Shown here one piece after another: positions 13,909 to 29,274 of a stretch of DNA of 64,000 nt. The stretch is from Pseudomonadota bacterium (GTDB lineage: Bacteria; Pseudomonadota; Alphaproteobacteria; Acetobacterales; Acetobacteraceae). The notes under the pieces are model-generated. The model ran no database searches. It was not told the DNA's origin and saw nothing but the letters and a program-made list of their open reading frames with translations. How positions within the stretch are numbered: position 1 is the stretch's first letter; every line of letters begins with the position of its first letter. A program made the translations under genes and the position numbers. Location: positions 62,001-126,000 of the forward strand of contig JAJZES010000017.1 of NCBI GenBank assembly GCA_021845985.1. Direction: 5' to 3'.

Positions 13909-15483
13909 TCAATCAGCCGGCGGCCGGCCGAGGCCGAGCGCCTCGGGGTTCATCAGCCCGCGCGGGTCCACCGCCTGCTTGACCGCATCGAGCAGGCCGC
14001 GGGTGCCCGGCGCCAGCAGCTCGCGGAACGGATAATCCCGCGCCACCTGCCAGGAGACGCCGCCGAGGCCGGCATAAAGCTCCTGCGTGGCGCGGCGCAG
14101 CGCCACCACCGCCTGACGCGCCGGCAGATTGGCCGGGCGGTGGCGCCATGGCCGCACCACGTCGTCGCCCAGGCTGCGCGCATGCAGTTCGGTGATTTCA
14201 TCCTGCCAGTAGAACGCCGGCTCGAGAAAAAACTCCTGGCCGGTGGTCATCGTCATCACCGAATAGACGATGCCGGCGCGCTGCATCTCGGCCCGTCTTG
14301 CGGCGAAGAAGGCGTCGTTGGCGTCCAGCACGCGGCGCGCCTCGCCGAGCGGGAAGACGGCATGGATCGGCACCCAACGCTCCCCGTCGCGGCCGAGCAT
14401 GCCGCGCACCGGGCCGAACGGGCGGGCGCGCATCACCCGCGGCACCGCATTGGCGATCTCCGTGCCCTGCGCCGCCGCCCCGATCGCCCGCGCCGCCGCC
14501 AGCGCCCGCTGCAATGCCGGCGCGTCGTCGGCCTCGATCACCAGATGCAGCGTGAAATCGTGCTGGCGCAGAAACGCCGTGCCGCCGGTGGCGATGCCGA
14601 GCGCATCGCGCATGCCGGCCAGCCGCGAGGTGCCGGCGGCGGCGACATTGCCCAATATCTGCAACCCCTCGCTGATGCGGTTGACGCTGGCCGAATGCTC
14701 GGCCTTGGTGCGGTCGATGCCGAAGCCCTCGGAGACCAGCCGCGCCCGCGCCAGACCGACCTGCGCCTCGGCCATCGCCTGGATGGTCGGGAAGCCGAAG
14801 GACAGGAAGTCGATGGCGGCAGGGGTCGGGATCAGCCGCAGCGTCGCCGCCAGTTTCAGCCCGAAGGCACCGTTGTCGCCGAGGAACAGCCCGGTCAGGT
14901 CCGGGCCGCCTTCGCGGGTGAACGGGCGGGTGCCGGCCCGGCCGCCGGCGCCGGTGACGGCGATGCTGCCATCGGCGAGGACGACCGAGACGCCGAGCAC
15001 GCTGTCGGCCACCGTGCCGTGGCGGGCCGAGCCGAAGAACGCGCTGTTCTGCGACAGCGCCCCGCCGATGGTCGCATTGAGACCCGACAGCGGCCCCCAA
15101 TAGGGCGTGCGCAAGCCGCTGCCGTCCAGCGCCTCGGCGAGCCTGGCCCAGGTGCAGCCGGCCTCGACGGTCACGTAGCGATCGGCGGCGTTGATCTCGA
15201 TCACCCGGTCCAGCCGGCGGGCGTCGATCACCAGCGACTCGGCGCGCGCCGGCAAATACCCCTTGCTGTAGGACATGCCGCCACCGCGCGGCACCACGGC
15301 GATGCCGGCCGCGGTGGCGATCCGCACCGCCGCCGCCGCCTGCTCGGCGGTGGCCGGCAGCGCGATCATGCGCGGGGCGATGCCGGGCTGCCAGAACACG
15401 TCATTGGCATAGAACGCAAGGCTGGCGGCATCGTCGAGAACGCCCCCGGCGCCGAGTGCGGCACGAAGCTGCGCGATGATCAC
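13909..15483 (-). CDS. FAD-binding oxidase (GlcD / D-lactate dehydrogenase-like, PCMH fold)
   Basis: A 524-residue flavoprotein. The N-terminal FAD-binding PCMH domain (about 30-210) contains VVPRGGGMSYSKGY and LSGLNATIGGALSQNSAFFG; the C-terminal part ends DPRGLMNPEALG, as in FAD-linked 2-hydroxyacid oxidases. The probable reaction is oxidation of a 2-hydroxy acid or alcohol, but the substrate is not apparent. The GTG start at 15483 overlaps the preceding metallo-hydrolase stop by three bases (GTGA), so it is probably the last gene of the long catabolic array. Confidence 0.83.
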   Translation of the reverse strand: MIIAQLRAALGAGGVLDDAASLAFYANDVFWQPGIAPRMIALPATAEQAAAAVRIATAAGIAVVPRGGGMSYSKGYLPARAESLVIDARRLDRVIEINAADRYVTVEAGCTWARLAEALDGSGLRTPYWGPLSGLNATIGGALSQNSAFFGSARHGTVADSVLGVSVVLADGSIAVTGAGGRAGTRPFTREGGPDLTGLFLGDNGAFGLKLAATLRLIPTPAAIDFLSFGFPTIQAMAEAQVGLARARLVSEGFGIDRTKAEHSASVNRISEGLQILGNVAAAGTSRLAGMRDALGIATGGTAFLRQHDFTLHLVIEADDAPALQRALAAARAIGAAAQGTEIANAVPRVMRARPFGPVRGMLGRDGERWVPIHAVFPLGEARRVLDANDAFFAARRAEMQRAGIVYSVMTMTTGQEFFLEPAFYWQDEITELHARSLGDDVVRPWRHRPANLPARQAVVALRRATQELYAGLGGVSWQVARDYPFRELLAPGTRGLLDAVKQAVDPRGLMNPEALGLGRPPAD

Positions 15484-16379
15484 GCCGACACTCCTGTCAC
15501 CGGGATGAACCTGAATGCGTCGCCGGCGACGGCGACGCGGCCGGCATGCGGCGCGCCGGTATGGGTCGGGAACACCACCGCACCGCTTTCCGCCGCCTCG
15601 CGCAGCACGCGGCGGCGGGTGGCGACGGCGAGGTCCGGCACTTCGCAGAAACAACTGTTCCACTCCGGCCGCAGCATCTGCATCGGCTGGTGGAACACGT
15701 CAGCGGTGAAGATGCCCAGCGCGCCCTGCGAGGCGACGCGCACGATCAGTTGGCCGGCGGTGTGGCCGGGCGCCGCATGCACGCTGATGCCGGGCAGGAT
15801 GCTGTCGCCATCGGCGATCAGCTCGACCAGCCCGGCCTGCTCCACCGGATCGACGCTGTCGGCGATCACCTCGATGCCGGCGGGATGCAGCCGCGGGCCG
15901 CCCTCCGGGTCGCGCCAGTGGGCCAGTTCGTCACGACCGATCAAATAGCGCGCGCGGGGGAATGTCGGCACCAGGCGCCCCCCCTCATAGCGCGTGTTCC
16001 AGCCGACATGATCGACGTGCAGATGGGTGTTGACCACCAGCGTCACCTGCTCCGGCCGCACGCCACAGGCGGCCAGCCGCTCCAGCCAGGGCGTGTCGAG
16101 CATGCTGAAGCGGCGGAAGGCGGGGTGCGAGCGCGGCTTGCCGTTGCCCGAACAGGTGTCGATCAGCACCACCGCATCCCCGACGCGCAGCAGCCAGCAA
16201 TGGATGCTCGACATCAGCTTGCCGGCGGCACGGTCGAACAGCGCCGGCGCGGCGAGCAGCGGATGTTCGTCCAGCACCGCCGGATCATAGAGCGGGAACA
16301 GGAACGCCGGGTCGAAGCCCGGTCCGAGCGATTCCTCGACCCGCATGACCTCGACGGCGCCGATCCGCATGTGCCACAT
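15480..16379 (-). CDS. Metallo-beta-lactamase-fold hydrolase
   Basis: A 299-residue MBL-fold protein. The binuclear zinc motif is intact: NTHLHVDHVGW gives H119, H121, D123 and H124. PGHTAG supplies the next His and FTADVFH the bridging Asp. The layout resembles AHL-lactonase-like and other lactone or ester hydrolases. The start chosen is the ATG at 16379, seven bases after GAAGGAA; a GTG two codons upstream is possible. It lies between LivF and the FAD oxidase, so a lactone or ester intermediate of the imported substrate is a reasonable but unproved target. Confidence 0.83.
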   Translation of the reverse strand: MWHMRIGAVEVMRVEESLGPGFDPAFLFPLYDPAVLDEHPLLAAPALFDRAAGKLMSSIHCWLLRVGDAVVLIDTCSGNGKPRSHPAFRRFSMLDTPWLERLAACGVRPEQVTLVVNTHLHVDHVGWNTRYEGGRLVPTFPRARYLIGRDELAHWRDPEGGPRLHPAGIEVIADSVDPVEQAGLVELIADGDSILPGISVHAAPGHTAGQLIVRVASQGALGIFTADVFHQPMQMLRPEWNSCFCEVPDLAVATRRRVLREAAESGAVVFPTHTGAPHAGRVAVAGDAFRFIPVTGVSA

Positions 16380-16391
16380 CGCCACGTTCCT

Positions 16392-17087
16392 TCAGGACAG
16401 ATAGGCTTCCAGCACGCCCTGATCGCTGCGCAGCGTCGCCGCCGCGCCCTCGGCGACGATGGCGCCGCGCTTCATCAGATAGGCGTAGTCGCAGACCGCC
16501 AGGGTGATTTCGGCATTCTGCTCGACCAGCAGGATCGACTGGCCCTGCTTGTGCAGCGCCACGATGGCGGCGAAGACGAGGTCGATGATGGCCGGGGCGA
16601 GGCCCATCGACGGCTCATCGAGCAGCAGCACGCGCGGCGCCGTCATCAGCGCGCGGCCGATCGCCAGCATCTGCTGCTCGCCGCCACTGAGCAGGCCCGA
16701 CACCTGCCGCCGGCGTTCCTTCAGGCGCGGGAACAGGTCATAGACGCGGGCCAGCAATTCGGCTTCGCGGCCGCGCCGCGCGTAGCGGCTGAGCGCCAGA
16801 TTCTCCTCCACCGTCAGCGGCGCCACCACCATGCGGCCCTCCGGCACCAGGGCGAGGCCGCGCCGCACCACGCGATGCAGCGGCAAGGCGCCGATTTCGC
16901 TGCCGTCGAGCAGGACGCGCCCGCGCACCGGCCGGTGCAGCCCGGCGATGCCGCGCAGCGTGGTCGATTTGCCGGCGCCGTTGGCGCCCAGGATCGCCAC
17001 CATGCCGCCCGCCGGCACCGACAGCGCGACATCGGCGACGGCGCGGATGGCGCCGTAGCTAGCGCAGAGCCCGGATACGCTCAGCAT
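16392..17087 (-). CDS. Branched-chain-type ABC transporter ATPase LivF-like (system 1)
   Basis: A 231-residue ATPase of an importer in the HAAT (branched-chain amino acid) family. Walker A is GANGAGKST, the Q-loop lies in LALVPEGRMVV, the signature is LLSGGEQQM, and Walker B is VLLLDEPSMGLAP, whose MGLAP tail is typical of LivF. The start at 17087 overlaps the livG-like gene by 29 bases; an upstream start at 17132 would add a non-conserved leader. The imported compound need not be a branched-chain amino acid, since the family also takes amides, aromatic acids and urea. Confidence 0.92.
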   Translation of the reverse strand: MLSVSGLCASYGAIRAVADVALSVPAGGMVAILGANGAGKSTTLRGIAGLHRPVRGRVLLDGSEIGALPLHRVVRRGLALVPEGRMVVAPLTVEENLALSRYARRGREAELLARVYDLFPRLKERRRQVSGLLSGGEQQMLAIGRALMTAPRVLLLDEPSMGLAPAIIDLVFAAIVALHKQGQSILLVEQNAEITLAVCDYAYLMKRGAIVAEGAAATLRSDQGVLEAYLS

Positions 17088-17868
17088 CGCCGCTCCGTCC
17101 GAAATAGGCCGCCTGCACCTCGGGATGGGCAAGACAAGCGGCGGGGGTCCCCTCGGTCAGCTTGCGGCCGAAGCTCATCACCGCGACATGGTCGCAGAAA
17201 TCGGTCACCAGCCGGACATTGTGCTCGACCATCAGCACCGTCAGCCCGGCGTCGCGCAGCTCATGCACCAGACCGCCGATCGCCGCAGATTCGGCGGCAT
17301 TCATGCCGGCGGTCGGCTCGTCGAGCAGCAGCAGCCGCGGATGGGCGCCGAGCGCGCGGGCGATCTCGATGCGCCGCTGCTCGCCATAGGACAGCGTCTC
17401 GGCCAGCACGTCGGCCCGGTGGGCGAGGCGCACGCGGTCGAGCAGATGCCGCGCCTCGGCCAGGGAACGGGCGCGCGCGGCGCGCGACGCCGGGGTGCCG
17501 AGGAAGGAGGCAATGAGCGAGGTGCCGCGGCGCAGGAAGCCGCCGGCCAGCACCTGCTCCAGCGCCGTCATGCCGCTGAACAGGCGGACGTTCTGATAGG
17601 TACGGGCGATGCCGCGGGCGGCGATGCGGTGGGCTGCGGCGCCGCCGATCTCGGCGCCGTCGAAGCGGATATGGCCGCGGTCGAAGCCCAGCAGCCCGGT
17701 GATGAGATTGATGACGGTGGTTTTGCCGGCGCCGTTCGGTCCCATCAGGCCCATGACGCTGCCGGTCGGCACGGCGAAGCTGAGATCGGCGACGGCGGCG
17801 ACGCCGCCGAAGGATTTGCCGACGCCGTCGAGTTCCAGCAGCGCCGGCGTGTCGCCGTCACCGCGCAT
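17059..17868 (-). CDS. Branched-chain-type ABC transporter ATPase LivG-like (system 1)
   Basis: A 269-residue partner ATPase. Walker A is GPNGAGKTTVIN, followed by GLLGFDRGHIRFDG and ARTYQNVRLFSGMTALEQV, the LivG-specific Q-loop region. The signature is LSYGEQRRIEIARAL and Walker B LLLLDEPTAGMN, which is diagnostic for LivG. The C-terminus HPEVQAAYFG is also typical. It overlaps both neighbours, so the four membrane and ATPase genes are translated together. Confidence 0.93.
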   Translation of the reverse strand: MRGDGDTPALLELDGVGKSFGGVAAVADLSFAVPTGSVMGLMGPNGAGKTTVINLITGLLGFDRGHIRFDGAEIGGAAAHRIAARGIARTYQNVRLFSGMTALEQVLAGGFLRRGTSLIASFLGTPASRAARARSLAEARHLLDRVRLAHRADVLAETLSYGEQRRIEIARALGAHPRLLLLDEPTAGMNAAESAAIGGLVHELRDAGLTVLMVEHNVRLVTDFCDHVAVMSFGRKLTEGTPAACLAHPEVQAAYFGRSGDAERIRALR

Positions 17869-18706
17869 GGCGCAGCCGCCACGCGCGCGGGTCGATCAGC
17901 CCGCGCGGCAGGAACACCATGATGGCGAGCAGCGCCGCGCCGTTGGCGACATCCTGAATCTGCGGCAGCACCGCCTGCATCACCACCGGCAGCGCGGTGA
18001 AGACGAACGCGCCGGCCACCGCGCCGGCCCAGTGATACGATCCGCCCAGCACCACGGCGGCGATCATGGTGAAGGCGATGTTGATGAAATAGGTGTCCGG
18101 CGAGATGAACTGCAGCATCGCCGCCAGCAGCATACCGCCCGCCCCGCCGACCGCGCCCGAGATGACGAAGGCGATGGTCTGCAGCCGCCGCGCCGGCATG
18201 CCAAGACTGGCGGCAACCGCCGGATCTTCGCGCACCGCCCGCACGGCGATGCCGTACCACGACCCCGACAGCCGGTGAAACACCAGCATCAGCAGCAGCA
18301 GCAGCACGGTCAGCGTGGCCAGCGACAGATCGACCGGCAGACTCAGCCCGTTGACGCCGCCGGTCAGCGTCGGGGCGTTGAGCACCACCACCCGCGTCAT
18401 CAGCACCAGCGCCAAACTGGCCAGCGCCATCCAGTGCCCGTCGAGCCGCAGGAACAGCAGCGCCACCGCATAGGCCAGCAGCGCGCCGGCAACGGCACTG
18501 ACCGGCAGCGCCAGCAACGGCGAGATGCCGGTGTTGAGCACCAGTTGCGCGCCGATGAAGCCGCCGAACGCGGCATAGCTGACGCTGGCGAAGCTCAGCA
18601 CGCCGGCCGACAGCACGGCGTAGGTGCTGAGGGCGAAGAACACGTTGACCATGGCGAAGCCGACACTGCTCTGGTAGGCGGCCCAAAGATCGGCGAGCAT
18701 CTGCAT
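17858..18706 (-). CDS. Branched-chain-type ABC transporter permease LivM-like (system 1)
   Basis: A 282-residue integral membrane protein with about eight to nine hydrophobic spans. LivM signatures are FASVSYAAFGGFIGAQL (normally SxGHAAFFGxGAY) near the N-terminus and AVREDPAVAASLGM in the cytoplasmic loop that contacts the ATPases. The next segment is VISGAVGGAGGMLLA. The N-terminus is shorter than in many LivM proteins. It overlaps livG by 11 bases and sits four bases after livH. Confidence 0.9.
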   Translation of the reverse strand: MQMLADLWAAYQSSVGFAMVNVFFALSTYAVLSAGVLSFASVSYAAFGGFIGAQLVLNTGISPLLALPVSAVAGALLAYAVALLFLRLDGHWMALASLALVLMTRVVVLNAPTLTGGVNGLSLPVDLSLATLTVLLLLLMLVFHRLSGSWYGIAVRAVREDPAVAASLGMPARRLQTIAFVISGAVGGAGGMLLAAMLQFISPDTYFINIAFTMIAAVVLGGSYHWAGAVAGAFVFTALPVVMQAVLPQIQDVANGAALLAIMVFLPRGLIDPRAWRLRHAR

Positions 18707-18709
18707 GGC

Positions 18710-19612
18710 TCAGGCGCGCAGGAAGGCGGCGCGGCCGAACAGCCCGCGCGGACGCAGCAGCAGAAAGCCGAGCAGCAGCGCATAGGTGATGCCGTCGCGC
18801 AGGCTGGTGGAGAGATATTGCGCGCTCATCACCTCCAGGATGCCGAGGGCGACGCCGGCGATGGCGGCGCCGCGCACATCGTCATAACCGCCGACGACGA
18901 CGGCGGCGAAGCCTTTCAGCATCAGCCCCTCGCCGAGGGTGAACGACACGTTCTGCGTCGAGATGCCGCCGAGCACGCCGGCCAGCCCCGACGTGGCGCC
19001 GGCGAGAAAGGCGGTGACGACGATGACGACGCGCGGATTGACCCCGCCCAGCGCCGCCGCGGCGCCGTTCCAGCCAACCGCGCGCATCGCCGCGCCGAAC
19101 CGGCTGTGCCGCACCAGGGCATGAATCCCCGCCGTCGCCAGCAGCATTGCCGCGATGGTGACGAGTTGCATCGACGGCAGCGGCAGCGCGCCCAGATGCA
19201 GCATGCGTGCCGGATAGGAGTCGGCGGGAAAGTTCAGACTCTGCTGGCCGGTGGCGAAACCGGCGAGACTGTCGAGCATGATCCAGAAGGCGATGCTGGT
19301 GATCAGGGCGCCGAGCATGCCGCCCTCTTTCGCCGGCCCGCCGCGCCCGCGCAGCGGCTGGAAGGCGATCTGATCGACCAGCAGCGCCAGCAGCCCGCCT
19401 GCGACGACGCCGGCCGCAACGGCGAGCGGAAACGGCGCGCCGAGATGCTGCACCGCCGCCAGCGCGGCAATCGCCGCCCAACTGGCGTAGGTGCCGTGGG
19501 CGGCGTTGAGGATGCCGAGGGTGGCGAACACGAGGCCGAAGCCGACCGCAAACAGCGCGTAGAGCGAACCGAGAGCGCAGCCGTTGACGAGCTGTTCGAC
19601 GAACAGGAGCAT
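18710..19612 (-). CDS. Branched-chain-type ABC transporter permease LivH-like (system 1)
   Basis: A 300-residue inner-membrane permease with about eight spans. The N-terminus VEQLVNGCALGSLYALFAVGFGLVFATLGILNAAHG is the LivH hallmark (read in short pieces: NGCALGSLYAL, LGILNAAHG). RAVGWNGAAAALGGVNPRVV is the ATPase-contact loop. It pairs with the LivM-like protein and is preceded by the periplasmic binding protein gene, eight bases away. Confidence 0.92.
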   Translation of the reverse strand: MLLFVEQLVNGCALGSLYALFAVGFGLVFATLGILNAAHGTYASWAAIAALAAVQHLGAPFPLAVAAGVVAGGLLALLVDQIAFQPLRGRGGPAKEGGMLGALITSIAFWIMLDSLAGFATGQQSLNFPADSYPARMLHLGALPLPSMQLVTIAAMLLATAGIHALVRHSRFGAAMRAVGWNGAAAALGGVNPRVVIVVTAFLAGATSGLAGVLGGISTQNVSFTLGEGLMLKGFAAVVVGGYDDVRGAAIAGVALGILEVMSAQYLSTSLRDGITYALLLGFLLLRPRGLFGRAAFLRA

Positions 19613-19620
19613 TTAGCGGG

Positions 19621-20757
19621 TCACGGCGCCGGCCACGGCGCCAGCGTGCCGTCCGGCTGCCACGCGACGATCAGCGTGCCCTGCGTTGCCGCCTGTCCGT
19701 CAGTGACGATCTCGCCGCCATAGACGTTGTGGTCGATCTGTTTGACCTCGGCCAGCGCCGCCGCCAGCGTCTCGCGCGTCGGCGTGCCCGACAGCGACTT
19801 CATCGCCTGCGCGATCATATAGACCGCCGCATAGCCCTGCGCCGAATAGATGTCGGGCGCGGCGCCGAAGCGGGCGGTATAGTCGCCGACGAATTTCTTG
19901 GCCTCCGGCGTCTGCGCCAGCGCCGCCGAGAAGCTGATCGGGAACGGCACGCCGGCCACCGTCTTGCCCATTTTCTGCACCACCGACTGCGGCGACAACA
20001 CGTCGTTGCCGACGATCGGATGGTCATAGCCGCGGCTGCGCAGCGCGGTGATGATGCCCTCGGCCGGGGTCTGCGTGGTGTAGATCAGGATCATGTCGGG
20101 CGACAGGCCCATCGCCTGCGTCGCCGGCGCGGTGAAATCGGTGTCCGACGACAAGACGCTGACCACGCCGGCGGTTTTCACCCCCATCGCCTCCACCGCC
20201 TGCTGCGCCGCCGCCATGCGTGCCTTAAAGGCGTCGTTGTCGGCGGCGACGAACCAGGCGGCGGTCTTCGGCTTGATGATGTCCGCCGCGCGCTGCGCCG
20301 TCGCCGTGTCCTTCGGGCCGGGCAGGATGGTGACGCTGTAGATCAGCGGCGGATGCGGCAGGCCGGGGGCGGTGGCGCCGAACACCACCAGCGGGATTTT
20401 CGCCCCGAGCACGATCGGGGTCAGCGATTTGACCACGCCCGACAGGATGCAGCAGCTCGTCGCCAGCACCGTGCGGTCGGCGATGAACTGGTGCATGTCC
20501 TGAATGGCGCGCGCCGGCTCGCTGGCGCTTTCCTTCTCGACCAATGCGAGCCCGGTGCCCGCGCCCATATAGCCGGAGGCGGAAATCTCCGCCGCGGCGA
20601 GCTGCGCGCCGTGGTCATAGGACAGGCCGGCGAAGGCGATCGGCCCGGTATTCTCGGTGATGAAGCCGATCTTGTAGGTGCCAGCGGCAAGTCCATCGGC
20701 CCAGGCCGGCGCCGTGGCCAACATCCCGGCGGCCAGCGCCGCGCGCAGCATGTGCAT
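19621..20757 (-). CDS. Periplasmic substrate-binding protein of ABC system 1 (Peripla_BP_6 type)
   Basis: A 378-residue type I periplasmic binding protein. A signal peptide ends at about APAWA-DG. The mature part shows YKIGFITENTGPIAFAGLSYDHGAQLAA, split here as the N-lobe start, and SCCILSGVVKSLTPIV in the ligand cleft region. It captures the substrate for the adjacent LivHMGF-like importer. The ligand cannot be predicted; the surrounding hydratase, lyase and oxidase genes favour a carboxylic acid over an amino acid. Confidence 0.9.
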   Translation of the reverse strand: MHMLRAALAAGMLATAPAWADGLAAGTYKIGFITENTGPIAFAGLSYDHGAQLAAAEISASGYMGAGTGLALVEKESASEPARAIQDMHQFIADRTVLATSCCILSGVVKSLTPIVLGAKIPLVVFGATAPGLPHPPLIYSVTILPGPKDTATAQRAADIIKPKTAAWFVAADNDAFKARMAAAQQAVEAMGVKTAGVVSVLSSDTDFTAPATQAMGLSPDMILIYTTQTPAEGIITALRSRGYDHPIVGNDVLSPQSVVQKMGKTVAGVPFPISFSAALAQTPEAKKFVGDYTARFGAAPDIYSAQGYAAVYMIAQAMKSLSGTPTRETLAAALAEVKQIDHNVYGGEIVTDGQAATQGTLIVAWQPDGTLAPWPAP

Positions 20758-20795: not shown

Positions 20796-21686
20796 TCAGC
20801 TTGCCAGACGCTCCAGAACGGCCGGCGCTTCCGGCAGCAGGCGCATCTGTATGTCGGCGATGGCGGAGAAATCCAGCAGTTCCGCGAACGCCTTGTGGTC
20901 CATGCAGGGCAGCGGCAGGGCGTGGGTCGATTTCGCCTCCATCAGCGCCTTCAGATTGGTCTGCAGCGCGCTGGCAACGGTCATCAGCCCCACCAGCGGG
21001 AAGGTGGCGATGCCGGCGATCTCGCGCAGATCGTCGGGCGACAGATCCTTCTCCAGCCAGCCGAGCACCTGCAGCGACAGCGGCACGCCGGCGGCGGCCT
21101 TGAAGCGGCGCAGCATCGCCGCGTCCTTCATCGTCTTGGAAATCGGCTGCACCATGTCGGCGCCGGCGGCGACATAGGCGCGGGCGCGCTCGATCGCCTC
21201 CGCCTCGCTGCCGGCATCGGTGCGGGCGATGATGACGAGGTCGGGATCACGCCGAGCCTCGACGGCGGCGCGGATTTTGGCGACCCCCTCGGCGACCGGG
21301 ATGACCTCGATGCGGTTGGCGATGGCCGGGCAGCGCTTGGGCACCACCTGATCCTCCAGGATCACCGCGGCGACGCCGGCCGTCTCGAACTCGCGCACGG
21401 TGCGCATCACGTTCACCGCGTTGCCATAGCCGGTGTCGCAATCGGCGATCACCGGGATCTCCACGGCACTGACCACCTGACGCACCACCGCCAGATTTTC
21501 CGTCATGGTGTACAGCTCGACATCCGGCTTGCCGAGGAAGGAGGCCGAAATGCCGAAGCCGGAGGTCAGCACCGCCTCGAACCCCGAGGTCTCGATCAGC
21601 TTGGCGCTGAGCGCGTCATAGGCGCCGGCGGCCCACACCGTGCGGCGCGCGGCGAGGCGCTCGCGGATCAGTTTGCGCTGTTGCAT
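20796..21686 (-). CDS. Isocitrate lyase / PEP mutase superfamily lyase
   Basis: A 296-residue TIM-barrel enzyme of the ICL/PEP mutase group, which cleaves or rearranges 2-hydroxy or phosphono acids. GAYDALSAKLIE, SGFGISASFLGKPD and ADCDTGYGN (Asp82-region metal site) are clear. The catalytic loop, usually K(K/R)CGH, reads PKRCPAIANR: the cysteine (C119) is kept but GH is replaced. This suggests a lyase other than standard methylisocitrate lyase, for example a dimethylmalate- or alkylmalate-type lyase. The ATG at 21686 was chosen over an upstream frame extension. It is next to an aconitase-fold hydratase pair. Confidence 0.87.
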   Translation of the reverse strand: MQQRKLIRERLAARRTVWAAGAYDALSAKLIETSGFEAVLTSGFGISASFLGKPDVELYTMTENLAVVRQVVSAVEIPVIADCDTGYGNAVNVMRTVREFETAGVAAVILEDQVVPKRCPAIANRIEVIPVAEGVAKIRAAVEARRDPDLVIIARTDAGSEAEAIERARAYVAAGADMVQPISKTMKDAAMLRRFKAAAGVPLSLQVLGWLEKDLSPDDLREIAGIATFPLVGLMTVASALQTNLKALMEAKSTHALPLPCMDHKAFAELLDFSAIADIQMRLLPEAPAVLERLAS

Positions 21687-21720
21687 GACTGGGTCCTTCG
21701 CAATGGGGGAGTATAACGGG

Positions 21721-22239
21721 TCAGGCGTGGGTGAGGTCGCGGCTGCGCTTGAGGTAGGGCACCAGCCCGCCGGTCTCCAGCATGGTGCGGTCGGCATCCG
21801 ACAGCGGCTCGATCGGACGGGCGCCGCCGGTGGTCAGGTTGCGCAGCATGCCATCCTGCCAGTCGAGCGCGATCTCGTCCCACCGCCGCACCAGCCCGAG
21901 CACGCCGGGGCAGGCGGCGAGCATGGTGCCCATGCTGATCTCGCCGCGCCAGAAGCCGGGCGAGAACGACTCTGCGATCACCCCGGCAATGCCGAGATGG
22001 CGCAGCGCGCGCAGCGGCGGGTAATGCGGGTGGCCGTAGCCGAAATTGCCGGCGCCGATCACCACATCGCCCGGCCTGACGCTGGCGGCGAAATCCGCGT
22101 CGTAGCCGCGCATGGCGAGTTTGGACAATTCCTCGACATTGGTGATCTTGATGTTCTTGACGCCGACGATCTGATCGACGTCGAAGTTCTCCTCATCGAA
22201 GATCCAGGCGACGCGGCCGCGCAACGTGGCGAGACTCAT
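21721..22239 (-). CDS. Aconitase-family hydratase, small subunit (LeuD-like)
   Basis: A 172-residue swivel-domain subunit that completes the active site of the adjacent large subunit. It begins VAWIFDEENFDVDQIVGVKNI, matching the LeuD/homoaconitase small-subunit start in outline, and has VVIGAGNFGYGHPHYPPLRALRHLGIAGVIAESF, where the usual GCSREHA loop is replaced by FGYGHPHYPP (recognised family variant, substrate-determining). A very strong AGGAGGA ribosome site precedes the ATG. Only 14 bases separate it from the large subunit. It probably hydrates or isomerises an unsaturated di- or tricarboxylate. Confidence 0.85.
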   Translation of the reverse strand: MSLATLRGRVAWIFDEENFDVDQIVGVKNIKITNVEELSKLAMRGYDADFAASVRPGDVVIGAGNFGYGHPHYPPLRALRHLGIAGVIAESFSPGFWRGEISMGTMLAACPGVLGLVRRWDEIALDWQDGMLRNLTTGGARPIEPLSDADRTMLETGGLVPYLKRSRDLTHA

Positions 22240-22253
22240 GGCGATTCCTCCGC

Positions 22254-23510
22254 CTACAGATATTTCCGCGGATCGGCGACGCAGCCCTCGATCGCTGCGG
22301 CGGCGACGGCGGCGGCGTTGCACAGGTAGATTTCCGAATCCGGGTTGCCCATCCGCCCGGCGACGTTGAGCGTGCCGGTGGACATCGCCCGCTGCCCGCC
22401 GGACAGCACGGCGATGCGGCCGAAGCAGTAATCGCAGCTTGGGCTGGAGGTGAAGGCGCCGGCCTCCACCAGGGTCGAGATCAATCCCTCTTCGGCGGCG
22501 CGGGCCATGATCTCCTGCGAGGTCGGGATGACATGCAGCGAGAACCCGTCCCTGACCCGCCGGCCCTTCAGGATCTGTGCGGCGATGCGCAGATCCTCCA
22601 GCCGCCCGCTGGCGCAACTGCCGAGATAGCCGGCATTCATCGGCAGACCGACATGGTCCATCAGGTTGCGGGTGTTGGCCGGGTTGGGCGGCACCACGAT
22701 CACCGGCTCCAGCGCCGAGATCTCGATGTCATGCACGGCGGCATATTCGGCATCGGCGTCGCTGCTGACCTCGGGCAGATGCAGCCGCGCCCGCGGGTCG
22801 GTGTAGGCGCGCGACAGCGCGTCTGGGTTGACGACGCCGGTGATGGCGCCGGTGAACATCGCCAGCCCGCAGATCACCTGCCGGCCTTCGAGCGAGATGC
22901 CGGCCAGCGCCGGGCCGCCGACCTCCATCACCTGAAAGCGGCAGGCGCTCGGCCCGAGCACGCGCACGATGTGATGGAACACGTCGCGCGCCATCACCCC
23001 CTTCTGCAGCGCGCCGGTCAGGTTGATGCGGGTGGTGTGCGGCACCTTGAGCGACACGTGCTCGCGCACGAAGGCTTCCAGCACGTTGCGGCGAAGCCCG
23101 ATGGCGAGCGTGCCGAAGGCGCCGAGCTGGCTGATATGGCCGTCGAAATGCACCACGAAGGCGCCGGGGCTGGCATAGCCGAGTTCGGCCGAGACCTGAT
23201 GGCCGATGCCGCGCCGCTCATACAGCGGCACCGATTGTTCGCGGCACCAGTCGCGGGTCTGGATGTGCAACTGTTCCTCGGCCGCTGTGGCCACCGGCAC
23301 CATGTGGTCGATGAACACGGCGAAGCGGTCCGGCTCGGCCAGCAGACCGATGCCGAAATCCTCTTTCATCTGGCGGAAGATGACATCGGTGTAGCCGGGA
23401 AAATCATAAACGACGACGAAATCGGGCTTCGCCATCACCTCCTCGCCGGCGCGCACATGGTCGCGGCCGGAAACCCGCGCCAAAACCTTCTCGGCCAGGG
23501 TGTATCCCAT
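22254..23510 (-). CDS. Aconitase-family hydratase, large subunit (LeuC-like)
   Basis: A 418-residue [4Fe-4S] hydro-lyase of the isopropylmalate isomerase/homoaconitase/dimethylmaleate hydratase group. Cluster cysteines are C299 (GSCASGRLEDL), C359 and C362 (SPSCDYCFG). The loop that normally reads GDSHT...GAFG is FDGHISQLGAFG, and STSNRNF.GR is MSTGTLNVAGR, so substrate contacts differ from LeuC. The ATG at 23510 fits the family start MGYTLAEKVLAR. It is followed by the small subunit and then an ICL-type lyase, a hydratase-lyase order like that of the dimethylmaleate pathway (family knowledge), though the true substrate is unknown. Confidence 0.87.
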   Translation of the reverse strand: MGYTLAEKVLARVSGRDHVRAGEEVMAKPDFVVVYDFPGYTDVIFRQMKEDFGIGLLAEPDRFAVFIDHMVPVATAAEEQLHIQTRDWCREQSVPLYERRGIGHQVSAELGYASPGAFVVHFDGHISQLGAFGTLAIGLRRNVLEAFVREHVSLKVPHTTRINLTGALQKGVMARDVFHHIVRVLGPSACRFQVMEVGGPALAGISLEGRQVICGLAMFTGAITGVVNPDALSRAYTDPRARLHLPEVSSDADAEYAAVHDIEISALEPVIVVPPNPANTRNLMDHVGLPMNAGYLGSCASGRLEDLRIAAQILKGRRVRDGFSLHVIPTSQEIMARAAEEGLISTLVEAGAFTSSPSCDYCFGRIAVLSGGQRAMSTGTLNVAGRMGNPDSEIYLCNAAAVAAAAIEGCVADPRKYL

Positions 23511-23602: not shown

Positions 23603-24391
23603 TCAGGTCAAATGGCTGGAAATCTCGGCCGCGGCGGCGGCAAGGCCAGTCAGGAAGCGCGGCGTCCCGTCCGCGGCCAGCAGCACGCCGGTCAGTCCGC
23701 CCAGGCTGAGCGCGGCGACGACGCTGCCGGCGCCGTCGCGCACCGGCACCGCCACCGCCGCCAGCCCGACCGCGACATCATCCGTTGTCACCTCGAAGCC
23801 GCGTCGGCGCACCTCGTCCATATGCCGGCGCAGCCACCCCGGATCGGTCTCCGAGCGCGCCGTGAGCGTTTGCGGCCGGGCCAGCGCGGCGGCCACCGCC
23901 GCCTCGTCCATATGCGCCAGCAGCAGCCGCGGGCCGGCGCCGCAGTTCCACGGCAGATGGCTGCCGACGGCCCACCACTGCACCTGCACCGGGTCGTGCC
24001 CATGCGCCCGTTCCAGGCACAGCGCCCCCGGCCGGTCGGCGACGCTGAGGAACACCGTCGCCCCGGTCTCCGCGGCCAGGCGCAGCATCACCGGCCGCGC
24101 CTCCTCGCGCAGCCCACCGGTCTGCACCGCCGCCGCCAGCGCCAGCACCTGCAGGCTGAGCGCATAGCGCTGCGTCGCCGCGTCCTGGCGCACCAGCCCG
24201 GCTTCCATCAGCGTCAGCAGCAGTCGCCGCGCGGTGCCCTTGTCGAGCGCTGCCGCCTGCGCCGCCTCGGCGAGGCTGAGGCGCGGGCGTTCGGCGGTGA
24301 AGGCGCGCAGCAGCGCCAGCGCCCGGCTGACCGCGCGCACCGTCGCCGGGTTGCGCGCCACCGGGTTGCGCCCCACCGGCAGGTCGTTCAC
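23603..24391 (-). CDS. IclR-family transcriptional regulator
   Basis: A 262-residue regulator. The winged helix-turn-helix is at about 17-80 (ALALLRAF, LAEAAQAAALDKGTARRLLLTLMEAGLV), and the ligand-sensing domain is at about 95-255 (GATVFLSVADRPGALCLE, LAAVAVPVRDGAGSVVAALSLGG). IclR proteins commonly control catabolic operons in response to the pathway substrate. It lies between the SDR gene (12 bases upstream) and the hydratase genes on the same strand, so it may regulate the whole minus-strand array and itself. Confidence 0.92.
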   Translation of the reverse strand: MNDLPVGRNPVARNPATVRAVSRALALLRAFTAERPRLSLAEAAQAAALDKGTARRLLLTLMEAGLVRQDAATQRYALSLQVLALAAAVQTGGLREEARPVMLRLAAETGATVFLSVADRPGALCLERAHGHDPVQVQWWAVGSHLPWNCGAGPRLLLAHMDEAAVAAALARPQTLTARSETDPGWLRRHMDEVRRRGFEVTTDDVAVGLAAVAVPVRDGAGSVVAALSLGGLTGVLLAADGTPRFLTGLAAAAAEISSHLT

Positions 24392-25337: not shown

Positions 25338-26300
25338 ATGACGGCCATCGGCGGCTTCAAGCCCCCCGCACGGCGCGGCCAGCGCCCGGCCATCCATTCG
25401 ATCGGCGAATTCGTCCTGAGCGTGCCCGATCTGGCCCGCGCGCAGGATTTTTACGCCGCCTTCGGTCTGCACGTAGCGGAGCAGGGCGCGACGCTGACGC
25501 TGGCCACCGCCGGCGACGGCTATCGCTGGGGCCGCCTCGTCCCCGGCGCGCGCAAGGCGATGCACCACGTCACCTTCCACTGCTTTGCCGAGGATTTCGA
25601 GCCGCTGCGCCGCCATATCGAGGCGCAAGGCGTGCGCCTGCTCGACCCGCCGCCCGGCTTCGACAGCAACGGCCTGTGGCTGCGCGACCATGACGGCATG
25701 CTGATCGAGGTCACCGTGGGGGTGAAAACCTCGCCCGATGAAAAGCGCCTCGTCGGCTGGGCGGAGGCGCCAGCCGGGCAGCGCAACGCGCCCTATCGCC
25801 GCATGACCCGGCCGGTGCAGCCGCGCCGGCTCGCCCACATCCTGCGCTTCACCCCCGATATCGCGGCGGCGATTGATTTCTACAGCCGCGTGCTCGGCCT
25901 GCGCCTGTCCGACCGCTCGGGCGACCTGATCGCCTTCATGCACGGCGTCCACGGCAGCGACCATCACCTGATGGCGTTCAGCCGCTCCAACGCCCCCGGC
26001 CTGCATCATCTGAGCTGGGACGTGCCGACGCTCGGCGATGTCGGCATCGGGGCGATGGCGATGGCCGATCGCGGCTATGACCGCGGCTGGGGCCTCGGGC
26101 GGCATGTGCTGGGGTCCAACTACTTCCACTACGTGCGCGACCCCTGGGGCAGTTACTGCGAATATTCCTGCGACATCGACTTCATCCCGGCGACGATGGA
26201 CTGGCAGAGCGCCGACCATCCGCCGGAGGACTCGTTCTATCTCTGGGGTCCGCAGGTGCCGCCCGAGTTCATCGTCAACATGGAAGCCGCCGCGGCATGA
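25338..26300 (+). CDS. Extradiol ring-cleavage dioxygenase (type I, VOC superfamily)
   Basis: A 320-residue two-domain VOC protein resembling catechol 2,3- or biphenyl-2,3-diol dioxygenases. It cleaves a catechol meta to the hydroxyls using Fe(II). Candidate metal ligands are H167 (LAHILRF), H223/H224 (GLHHLSWD) and E275 (SYCEYSCD), with the conserved HVLGSNYFHYVRDPWG stretch between. An AGGGAGG ribosome site precedes the ATG, eight bases away. It starts the plus-strand operon and overlaps the FAD hydroxylase by four bases. Confidence 0.9.
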   Translation: MTAIGGFKPPARRGQRPAIHSIGEFVLSVPDLARAQDFYAAFGLHVAEQGATLTLATAGDGYRWGRLVPGARKAMHHVTFHCFAEDFEPLRRHIEAQGVRLLDPPPGFDSNGLWLRDHDGMLIEVTVGVKTSPDEKRLVGWAEAPAGQRNAPYRRMTRPVQPRRLAHILRFTPDIAAAIDFYSRVLGLRLSDRSGDLIAFMHGVHGSDHHLMAFSRSNAPGLHHLSWDVPTLGDVGIGAMAMADRGYDRGWGLGRHVLGSNYFHYVRDPWGSYCEYSCDIDFIPATMDWQSADHPPEDSFYLWGPQVPPEFIVNMEAAAA

Positions 26301-27913
26301 CCGAGCGGGCCGACGTGGTCATCATCGGCGCCGGCCCGGTCGGGCTGGCGCTGGCGATCGAGCTTGGCATGCGCGGTGTACGGGCGACGTTGGTGGAGGA
26401 AAACGACCGCATCGCGCCGCAGCCGCGCGCCAAGACGACCAATGTGCGCTCGATGGAGCATATGCGCCGCTGGGGCATCGCCGCGGCGCTGCGCGCCAGC
26501 GCGCCGCTGCCCGCCGACTATCCGACCGACGTGATCTTCACCACCCGCCTGTTCGGCCACCGCCTCGCCCGCTTCGAGAACGCCTTCAACGGCTACCGCG
26601 TCCGCGACGAGCGGTATTCGGAGCCGGCGCAATGGGTGCCGCAATTCAAGGTGGAGGCGGCGCTGCGCCGCCGCGCCCTCAGCCTGCCCGGCGTGACGCT
26701 GCACGCGGCGACGCGGTTTCTGTCGCTGGTGGAAACCCCCGCCGGGGTCAGCGCGGAGGTCGAGGACATCGCCAGCGGGGCGCGGCGGCAGATCGCCGCG
26801 TCCTATCTGGTCGGCGCCGACGGCGCGCGCAGCCAGGTGCGCCGGGTGCTCGACATAGCGATGCAGGGCCGCCACGCCTTCGGCTTCAACCTCAATTACG
26901 TCATCCGCGTGCCCGGACTGCGCCAGTTCGGCGCCCTCGATCCGGCGATCATGTACTGGCTGGTCAATCAGGACAGCCCCGCCGCCACCGGCCCGATGGA
27001 TCAGGACGATGTCTGGTTCTACGGCTTCCTGCGCGGCAAGGACGAGCCGCCGCCGGACGACGCGGCGGTCAAGGCGCGCATCCGCCGCTCGTTCGGCCGT
27101 GATGTGGACGTCGAGATTCTCGTCACCGACGCCTGGGCGGCGCACAGCCTGATCGCCGAACGCTACGGCACCGCGCGGGTCCACCTCGCCGGCGATGCCT
27201 GCCATCTGCATCCGCCGTTCGGCGGCTACGGGATGAATCTCGGTCTCGGCGACAGCGTCGATCTCGGCTGGAAACTCGCCGCGATGGTGCAGGGCTGGGG
27301 CGGCGCGGCGCTGCTCGACAGCTACGCGGCCGAACGCCGCCCCGTGCATCGCCGCGTCATCGACGAGGCGGTGGCCAATTACGCGCTGCTGTCGGACCAT
27401 CTGGCACGCCCGGAAATCGAGCAGGACGGCGCCGCCGGCGCGGCGGTGCGGCGCGCCTTGGGCGACGCCATCCTGACCGGCAAGGCGCGCGAGTTCCACA
27501 CCCTCGGCGTGGTGCTCGGGGCGCAGTATTCCGGCTCGCCGATCGTCGTGCCGGACGGCAGCGCAGCGCCGCCGGAGCACACCTCGGACTACGTCCCCTC
27601 CGCCCATCCCGGCTGTCTCGCGCCGCATCTGTGGCTGGCCGACGGAAGCTCGCTTTATGACGGGTTCGGCCTCGGCTTCACCCTGCTGGCGACGCCGGCC
27701 GCCGCCGCCGCATCGGTCGCCGCGCTGGCCGGAGCGGCGCAGGCGGCGGGGCTGCCGCTAACCGTGCTGCGGCCGGAGGATGGGCGCATTGCCGCGCTCT
27801 ACCAGGCGGCGCTGACGCTGATCCGTCCCGACCAGCATGTCGCCTGGCGCGGCGACGCGGCGGGCGCGGACGCCGCCGGCATCATCGCCCGGGTGCGCGG
27901 GGCGGCGCCATGA
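26297..27913 (+). CDS. FAD-dependent aromatic monooxygenase (MhpA/PheA-like)
   Basis: A 538-residue class A flavin monooxygenase that hydroxylates a phenolic ring to a catechol. GAGPVG (11-16) binds ADP of FAD. The DG motif is in LVGADGARSQVRR, and the GD motif reads HLAGDACHLHPPFGGYGMNLGLGD. The C-terminal thioredoxin-like domain typical of MhpA/PheA proteins follows. Its ATG overlaps the dioxygenase stop by four bases. With the dioxygenase it forms a hydroxylase-dioxygenase pair for a phenolic acid. Confidence 0.93.
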   Translation: MTERADVVIIGAGPVGLALAIELGMRGVRATLVEENDRIAPQPRAKTTNVRSMEHMRRWGIAAALRASAPLPADYPTDVIFTTRLFGHRLARFENAFNGYRVRDERYSEPAQWVPQFKVEAALRRRALSLPGVTLHAATRFLSLVETPAGVSAEVEDIASGARRQIAASYLVGADGARSQVRRVLDIAMQGRHAFGFNLNYVIRVPGLRQFGALDPAIMYWLVNQDSPAATGPMDQDDVWFYGFLRGKDEPPPDDAAVKARIRRSFGRDVDVEILVTDAWAAHSLIAERYGTARVHLAGDACHLHPPFGGYGMNLGLGDSVDLGWKLAAMVQGWGGAALLDSYAAERRPVHRRVIDEAVANYALLSDHLARPEIEQDGAAGAAVRRALGDAILTGKAREFHTLGVVLGAQYSGSPIVVPDGSAAPPEHTSDYVPSAHPGCLAPHLWLADGSSLYDGFGLGFTLLATPAAAAASVAALAGAAQAAGLPLTVLRPEDGRIAALYQAALTLIRPDQHVAWRGDAAGADAAGIIARVRGAAP

Positions 27914-29274
27914 GCGGCGCAGCCGATGTCTGCGATGTCGCGGCGCTGATCGACCGGCGCGGCCTGTCGCCGCTGCAGCTGCGCATCATCGCGCTGTGCG
28001 CGCTGGTCGCAGTGCTGGACGGCGCCGATACCTCCTCGATCGCCATTGCCGCCCCGGCCATCGCCGCAAAACTCGCCATGCCGATGCGCGGTCTGGGCGT
28101 GGTGTTCTCGGCGGCGACGCTGGGCGCCATGCTCGGCGCCATGAGCTTCGGCCCGCTGGCCGACCGGCTGGGACGCAAGCGGGTGCTGGTGGCAGCGGCG
28201 GCCATCTTCGGGCTGTTTACGATCCTCACCGCGCTTGCCGGCAGCCTCGCCGCGCTCATCGCCTGCCGCTTCGTCGCCGGCATCGGGCTGGGCGGGGCGA
28301 CGCCGTGCTTCCTCGGTCTGGCCAGCGAATATGCGCCACGGCGCATGCGCGGGGCGCTGGTCAGCGTGCTGTGGGCCGGCTTCCCGCTCGGCATCATGCT
28401 CGGCGGCTTCGGCAATGCGTGGCTGGTGCGCAATTATGGCTGGCCGGCGATCTTCCTGGTCGGCGGCACGCTGCCGATCCTGGTGGCGCTGGCCAGTGCC
28501 GCCTGGCTGCCCGAGAGCCTGACCTTCCTGGTGCTGCGTGAGCGTGGCGCGGCGGCGGCGCGCGACATCCTGGCGCGGCTGGCGCCGGGCGCGGTCGGCC
28601 CCGGTGAGCCGCTGGTGGTCAGCGAGCGCGCCCTGCCGGGCGTGCCGGTGGCCCATCTGTTCCGCGCCGGCCGGGCGCTGCCGACGCTGCTGCTGTGGCT
28701 GCCGTTCTTCGCCGGCTTTGGCGTGCTCGGCGTGGTGGTGCTGTGGATGCCGACGCTGCTGCAGGCGGGCGGCGCCGCGCGCAGCATGGCGACGGCGGCC
28801 AATGTCAATGCGTTCAACGGCCTGGGCGGCTGCATCGGCATGGCGGCGGCGGGGTTCCTGGTCGATCGGTTCGGCGCGGCGCGGGTGCTGGCGCCGGCCT
28901 TCGTGGTCGGCGCCGCCTGCACCGCGGCGCTTGGCGCCGCCGTCGCCTCGGTGGCGCTGGCCGCCGCCTGCACCGGGGCGATCGGGTTGTCGGTCGGCAT
29001 CGCCTCCTCCGGCGCGATCGCGCTGGCGGCGCTGGCCTATCCGACGCCGATGCGCGCCACCGGCATCGGCTGGGCCATGGGGTTGGGACGCTTCGGGCAG
29101 GTTGCGCTGCCGCTGCTGGCGGCGCGCATGATCGGGCCGGGCGGCGCGGCACAGACCATGTTGCTGGTGATGGCCGGGCTGCTGCTGCTGGCCGCCGTGG
29201 CGGTGCTGCTGCTGCGCGTCGCCAGCGTGGCGCCGCGCCCGGCGCTGTCCGCCGCCGCGGCCGGCCGGCTGTGA
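27910..29274 (+). CDS. MFS transporter, aromatic acid:H+ symporter-like
   Basis: A 454-residue major facilitator with about 12 spans. DGADTSSIAIAAPAI near the first span and the loop GPLADRLGRKRVL (motif A) match the AAHS family of aromatic-acid symporters. Repeated GFG/GIG motifs and QTMLLVMAGL in the last span are consistent. It is coupled to the monooxygenase by ATGA overlap, so it probably imports the phenolic substrate across the inner membrane. Confidence 0.9.
   Translation: MSGAADVCDVAALIDRRGLSPLQLRIIALCALVAVLDGADTSSIAIAAPAIAAKLAMPMRGLGVVFSAATLGAMLGAMSFGPLADRLGRKRVLVAAAAIFGLFTILTALAGSLAALIACRFVAGIGLGGATPCFLGLASEYAPRRMRGALVSVLWAGFPLGIMLGGFGNAWLVRNYGWPAIFLVGGTLPILVALASAAWLPESLTFLVLRERGAAAARDILARLAPGAVGPGEPLVVSERALPGVPVAHLFRAGRALPTLLLWLPFFAGFGVLGVVVLWMPTLLQAGGAARSMATAANVNAFNGLGGCIGMAAAGFLVDRFGAARVLAPAFVVGAACTAALGAAVASVALAAACTGAIGLSVGIASSGAIALAALAYPTPMRATGIGWAMGLGRFGQVALPLLAARMIGPGGAAQTMLLVMAGLLLLAAVAVLLLRVASVAPRPALSAAAAGRL

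Follow-up and report, generated by a model that had tools for sequence, protein, structure and literature searches.

A conserved gene triad pairs an aconitase-fold hydratase with an isocitrate lyase-type lyase, both with altered active-site residues

The aconitase family is a textbook example of active-site constancy. Apart from aconitase X, all superfamily members share more than 15 of 20 active-site residues, and Ser642 serves as the general base (PMC8184944). The locus analyzed here, found in a 64,000-nucleotide stretch of an Acetobacteraceae genome (contig JAJZES010000017.1; hereafter the window), encodes an aconitase-fold hydratase next to a lyase of the isocitrate lyase (ICL)/PEP-mutase family, and both depart from the usual active-site motifs. 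It raises the question of whether these are ordinary enzymes that have drifted or a pair that acts on a different substrate.

Layout of the locus

Ten minus-strand genes follow one another here, adjacent or overlapping, and the hydratase-lyase triad (20796-23510) comes first. Their order is large subunit, small subunit, lyase, substrate-binding protein, LivH, LivM, LivG, LivF, MBL-fold hydrolase, and FAD_binding_4 oxidase. Upstream of the triad, the same strand carries an IclR regulator and an SDR. The features are listed below, with their occurrence among 80 related loci where it was counted.

22254..23510, minus strand: large subunit, aconitase fold, 418 aa; C299/C359/C362; altered D123-G-H125, F219, and T380-L381
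21721..22239, minus strand: small (swivel) subunit, 172 aa; H-P-H at S642-S643-R644; K31 at the R580/YLRT loop
20796..21686, minus strand: lyase, ICL/PEP-mutase family, 296 aa; PKRCP, I182, and Q206; D55, D82, D84, E111, C119, and R155 kept
23603..24391, minus strand: IclR-type regulator, PcaR/PobR-like (below cutoff); homologue in 38/80 loci
19621..20757, minus strand: substrate-binding protein, ABC importer of the branched-chain amino acid type; family in 23/80 loci
18710..19612, minus strand: LivH-type permease, ABC importer
17858..18706, minus strand: LivM-type permease, ABC importer
17059..17868, minus strand: LivG-type ATPase, ABC importer
16392..17087, minus strand: LivF-type ATPase, ABC importer
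15480..16385, minus strand: MBL-fold hydrolase, lactonase-like; homologue in 32/80 loci
13909..15492, minus strand: FAD_binding_4 oxidase; homologue in 28/80 loci, median identity 67%

The MBL-fold hydrolase and the FAD_binding_4 oxidase are probably accessory enzymes. A divergent plus-strand run (25341-29274) encodes an extradiol-dioxygenase-like glyoxalase protein, an aromatic FAD monooxygenase (NF004780, above cutoff), and an MFS-like transporter, and it is probably a separate aromatic catabolic operon.

Family membership and phylogeny

The large subunit scored 199.7 bits against PF00330 (curated cutoff, 28.7). Among solved structures, it is closest to the archaeal isopropylmalate/citramalate isomerase, whose partner subunit is in turn matched by the window's small subunit. 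The lyase falls in the PEP-mutase/ICL superfamily. Two AlphaFold models (mean pLDDT of 91.6 and 89.2) confirmed both folds, with a TM score of 0.92 for the large subunit to Methanocaldococcus jannaschii IPMI (4kp1) and 0.86 for the lyase to methylisocitrate lyase. None of the three proteins reached the cutoff of an NCBIfam family. The large subunit scored 145 of 560 bits for TIGR00170 (leuC), 274 of 611 for TIGR02083, and 349 of 385 for the broad NF001614; the small subunit scored 96 of 109 for TIGR02087 and the lyase 186 of 354 for prpB. True LeuC (768 bits) and PrpB (416 bits) proteins, both over their cutoffs, are encoded elsewhere in the same genome.

Phylogenetic trees, both of them quick searches with SH-aLRT support only, gave the same picture. 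The window clade of large subunits (support of 100) was separate from LeuC (support of 100) and joined three other altered lineages (support of 97), whereas the window-clade lyases formed one group (95) outside PrpB (97). By these sequence comparisons, neither the hydratase nor the lyase is LeuCD or PrpB. This agrees with the original prediction, for which a placement of the proteins inside LeuC and PrpB would have counted as a refutation. No characterized relative was found in this analysis.

The same genome also contains a second hydratase-lyase pair (G000:C19; L194; L003 with L148), in which the lyase has a normal CGH signature and adjoins a LeuC-type large subunit that is above the leuC cutoff.

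Distribution and linkage of the triad

Within the family and class of the window, relatives were found at 57-90% identity, and the next match was at 38%. Scanning a single genome for each species yielded the 80 related loci, at 62-90% identity, from alpha-, beta-, and some gammaproteobacteria. Plasmids carry the triad too (in Azospirillum, Variovorax, Polaromonas, and Comamonas), and one from Rhodococcus opacus encodes a relative at 46% identity that shares the motifs but not the gene order. In public annotation, the plasmid relatives are named only aconitase family protein, 3-isopropylmalate dehydratase, or isocitrate lyase/PEP mutase family protein.

A clade lyase was present near the hydratase in 75 of the 80 loci. 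The other five (L122, L129, L130, L133, and L138), some of which are contig ends, had none nearby; the pairing is thus strongly conserved, yet not absolute. All three genes were on one strand in each of the 74 complete sets and contiguous in 64 of them. Pairwise identities of the large subunits and the lyases were correlated with an r of 0.85, compared to a maximum of 0.12 after shuffling, and the hydratase and the lyase share one phylogeny.

Active-site residues of the hydratase

For the large subunit, profile alignment assigned the columns to both M. jannaschii IPMI and mitochondrial aconitase; the small subunit was assigned by reference to M. jannaschii IPMI alone. Translation and residue numbering confirmed the cluster cysteines C299, C359, and C362 and the altered stretch FDGHISQLGAFG from residue 122 of the large subunit, both of which the original prediction had reported, and translation confirmed its NFGYGHPHYPP (FGYGHPHYPP) motif in the small subunit. 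Further replacements not listed there were E262 to F219, N258 to G/C215, and N446-R447 to T380-L381. In total, 17 classical aconitase active-site residues could be mapped, and Q72, N170, and R580 had no confident mapping; the list of 20 is what we take to be the standard set. Nine were kept (D100, H101, H147, D165, H167, the three cluster cysteines, and R452) and eight were replaced (S166 to G, N258 to G/C, E262 to F, N446 to T, R447 to L, and S642-S643-R644 to H-P-H).

These features were nearly uniform across 95 rows, which cover the 80 loci of alpha-, beta-, and some gammaproteobacteria and count repeats. The three cysteines, aligned to C358, C421, and C424 of mitochondrial aconitase, were present in 95/95 rows, as were D123, H125, F219, T380-L381, and the small-subunit H-P-H, with G124 in 94. 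The R580 loop had Lys or Arg in all rows. That the altered letters are near-invariant in 80 loci and recur in the Rhodococcus plasmid rules out chance or sequencing error. The window hydratase falls short of the more than 15 of 20 residues, including the Ser642 base, that define the classical Acn, IPMI, and HACN enzymes (PMC8184944). With the three cysteines kept along with Asp165, His167, and His147, which surround Fe4 in aconitase (PMC8184944), the hydratase would carry a [4Fe-4S] cluster, and a His of the small-subunit HPH motif probably stands in for the serine base.

Active-site residues of the lyase

The lyase reads PKRCPAIANR and retains C119, as originally described and as found again by translation and numbering. 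The GH of the KRCGH loop is replaced by P-(A/I/C), and additional replacements in the second pocket, beyond those described, were E to I182, N to Q206, and F to Q180. D55, D82, D84, E111, C119, and R155 are kept. Across 84 lyases, C119-P120, I182, and Q206 were each found in 83. In ICL, Asp108, Cys191, and Arg228 are core residues for C-C cleavage (PMC7609661), and their equivalents D55 (84/84), C119 (83/84), and R155 (84/84) are retained, whereas the KKCGH/KRCGH signature of ICL-type lyases is lost at its GH. Asn313 is among the ICL contacts to succinate and itaconate (PMC8099091). Since the catalytic residues are kept and those of the second pocket are replaced, the half of the site that forms the 2-oxo acid is, as judged from its residues, preserved, and the leaving-group half has been remodeled.

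The motifs of the two enzymes also changed in step. A CGH lyase was found beside none of 90 altered hydratases but beside 13 of 14 canonical hydratases, a comparison whose canonical set consists of more distant paired genes and whose rows are phylogenetically non-independent, so that its Fisher value does not measure how probable the hypothesis is. The three altered lineages that join the window clade (B, C, and D) likewise lack S-S-R. They differ from it in having NPH; HNH with D165 to E and H167 to N; and SxH (L156-L162, L166-L170, and L171-L172). Their nearby lyases, where present, are altered too (CGL, CPY, and CGA).

Two other arrangements were observed. At L122 (Paraburkholderia humisilvae), the clade hydratase has D-P-H for D-G-H, and the lyase-family neighbor is clearly different, with a GKHTNL motif, possibly a change of partner. 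At L174-L183, canonical IPMI-like large and small subunits that are widespread in alphaproteobacteria and lack a named function are followed directly by a KRCGH lyase.

Transport and accessory genes

Transport varied by lineage, with three ABC types, TRAP, and TTT systems and an MFS-like transporter in Rhodococcus. In loci of the LivH-C type, the importer genes lie between the small subunit and the lyase. About one-third of the loci add an MBL hydrolase, an FAD oxidase, and a double alpha/beta hydrolase. Many TRAP/TTT loci, by comparison, consist of the triad and a transporter without a constant further enzyme, which means that the triad can complete a pathway. HyuA/HyuB (hydantoinase/oxoprolinase) pairs were beside the triad in five loci in varied arrangements (L074, L101, L108, L126, and L131), LigXa-type Rieske oxygenases were nearby in three loci, and cytosine deaminase was nearby in two. 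The accessory genes varied by lineage without convergence, and no constant accessory set that would point to the substrate was found among the related loci. The simplest reading is that the triad turns an imported acid into central metabolites and that the accessory enzymes feed precursors in.

Beside TRAP-type triads, a 545-aa protein (L087, L092, L105, and L116) had no Pfam or NCBIfam match, and a 390-aa protein (L099) had no Pfam and no solved-structure match. A pyridine-ring route, for which these neighbors had been guessed to be 2,5-dihydroxypyridine dioxygenases, was not supported, as they had no Pfam match and none elsewhere among the resources searched.

Comparison with known systems

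Among the closest known systems is the M. jannaschii IPMI/citramalate isomerase (large subunit MJ0499, 4nqy/4kp1; small subunit 3vba), which shares with the window hydratase the fold, the two-subunit layout, the cluster cysteines, and the DH, HQ, and D-x-H motifs. However, the two are ~32% identical, S166, N258, E262, N446, R447, and S-S-R are all replaced in the window protein, and the latter is paired with a lyase. Aconitase X (cis-3-hydroxyproline and mevalonate-5-phosphate dehydratases) sets a precedent in the superfamily, its active site having diverged toward new chemistry (PMC8184944). In aconitase X the Ser base is retained and the cluster cysteines differ, whereas the window hydratase keeps the classical cysteines and loses the Ser. 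Membership in aconitase X was rejected because of these cysteines and a TM score of 0.56 (rank 17-20).

On the lyase side, PrpB, petal death protein, and PEP mutase share the TIM-barrel superfamily, the Mg site, and Arg155 with the window lyase, which also has Cys119 as in the lyases of this group. It differs in that GH, E, N, and F186 are replaced by P-(A/I/C), I, Q, and Q, and in its position outside PrpB in the tree. In nicotinate fermentation, DmdAB and 2,3-dimethylmalate lyase combine an aconitase-type hydratase and an ICL-family lyase in one pathway, and both substrates of that pathway are dicarboxylates. The dimethylmalate lyase structure (3fa3) was just one among many similar matches to the window lyase, in which the KKCGH motif is lost. 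We found no description of such an altered hydratase-lyase pair in the open-access literature searched.

A proposed two-step pathway and its alternatives

Aconitases form a 2-hydroxy acid, and ICL-type lyases cleave the C2-C3 bond of such an acid. We consider it reasonably probable that the triad works as a catabolic module of two steps, with a [4Fe-4S] hydro-lyase first and an ICL-type Mg lyase second, acting on a substrate that probably lacks the usual second carboxylate. Gene content, conservation, co-inheritance, fold, and phylogeny are established by the analysis, and the cluster, step order, base, and substrate class are inferred. The heterodimeric hydro-lyase would add (or remove and re-add) water on an imported small acid to give a 2-hydroxy acid, either by hydrating an unsaturated acid or by dehydration/isomerization of a hydroxy acid. 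The Mg-dependent lyase would then cut the C2-C3 bond of the product, releasing a 2-oxo acid, either pyruvate or glyoxylate, along with another fragment, which Cys119 would protonate. The substrate would have another group (amide, ketone, or ring derived) at the carbon next to the cleaved bond. We propose this because the residues that we take to help hold the carboxylate at that position (in aconitase R447, R644, and S643; in the ICL pocket H, E, and N) are missing from virtually all members of the clade, in the hydratase and the lyase alike. We found no paper in the open-access literature that ties carboxylate contacts to individual residues of aconitase, and the step from these losses to a substrate with another group there is the weakest of the argument. 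For a remaining anionic group, the Lys/Arg at the R580 loop is a possible binding site.

The original prediction had proposed a hydrate-then-cleave step analogous to the dimethylmaleate pathway. The pairing of the two enzymes is real and strongly conserved, with the hydratase genes linked to an ICL-family lyase in 75/80 loci as in that pathway, and the hydrate-then-cleave idea is plausible and partly supported. The likeness to dimethylmaleate, however, is not established: the substrates there are dicarboxylates, and the residues lost here suggest another group in place of the second carboxylate. A related explanation is an ordinary alkylmaleate/alkylmalate pathway, in which a dicarboxylate such as citraconate, dimethylmaleate, or an isopropylmalate analogue is hydrated or isomerized and then cleaved, with the altered residues binding the same groups differently. 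The enzyme order is that of the established dimethylmaleate route, R452 and a Lys/Arg at the R580 loop are available, the transporters are of kinds typical for small acids, and relatives with canonical motifs have the same gene pairing. But eight catalytic or binding positions that are near-fixed in classical members are replaced, and the paired relatives that keep these positions also keep KRCGH, so that we regard this explanation as rather unlikely.

The hydratase and the lyase might also belong to different pathways that share a regulator and an importer, their co-location reflecting a generally useful catabolic island. The five loci without a nearby clade lyase and the importer genes that separate small subunit and lyase in LivH-C type loci would fit this. 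Yet the same-strand linkage in all complete sets, the matching trees and motif losses, and the retention of the triad in a distant actinobacterium with a different gene order make it improbable. Least probable is that the proteins are diverged but plain LeuCD and methylisocitrate lyase. Although the solved structures closest to them are those of IPM isomerase and methylisocitrate lyase, identity with LeuCD and PrpB was rejected on the NCBIfam scores (leuC, 145 versus 560 bits; prpB, 186 versus 354), the separate clades (support of 100 and 95-97), and the genuine LeuC and PrpB elsewhere in the genome, and the base and binding residues are lost.

Implications

As an extension of the two-step module proposed above, we put forward, tentatively and with more doubt than conviction, that the hydratase of the triad belongs to a functional class new to the aconitase superfamily. 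Its members would use a non-serine (probably His) base, turn over a substrate that lacks the usual second carboxylate, and work with their own re-engineered ICL-type lyase in a novel degradation pathway, and the three sister lineages would run related chemistry on other substrates. If this is true, a widespread lineage has replaced the base and half of the binding residues of this active site, and its partner lyase has changed to match, and the case would show how the two enzymes of a pathway are retooled together. It would also provide a function for genes whose present labels go no further than aconitase family protein and isocitrate lyase/PEP mutase family protein. Because the loci have dedicated importers, the substrate should be findable through simple growth and fitness screens.
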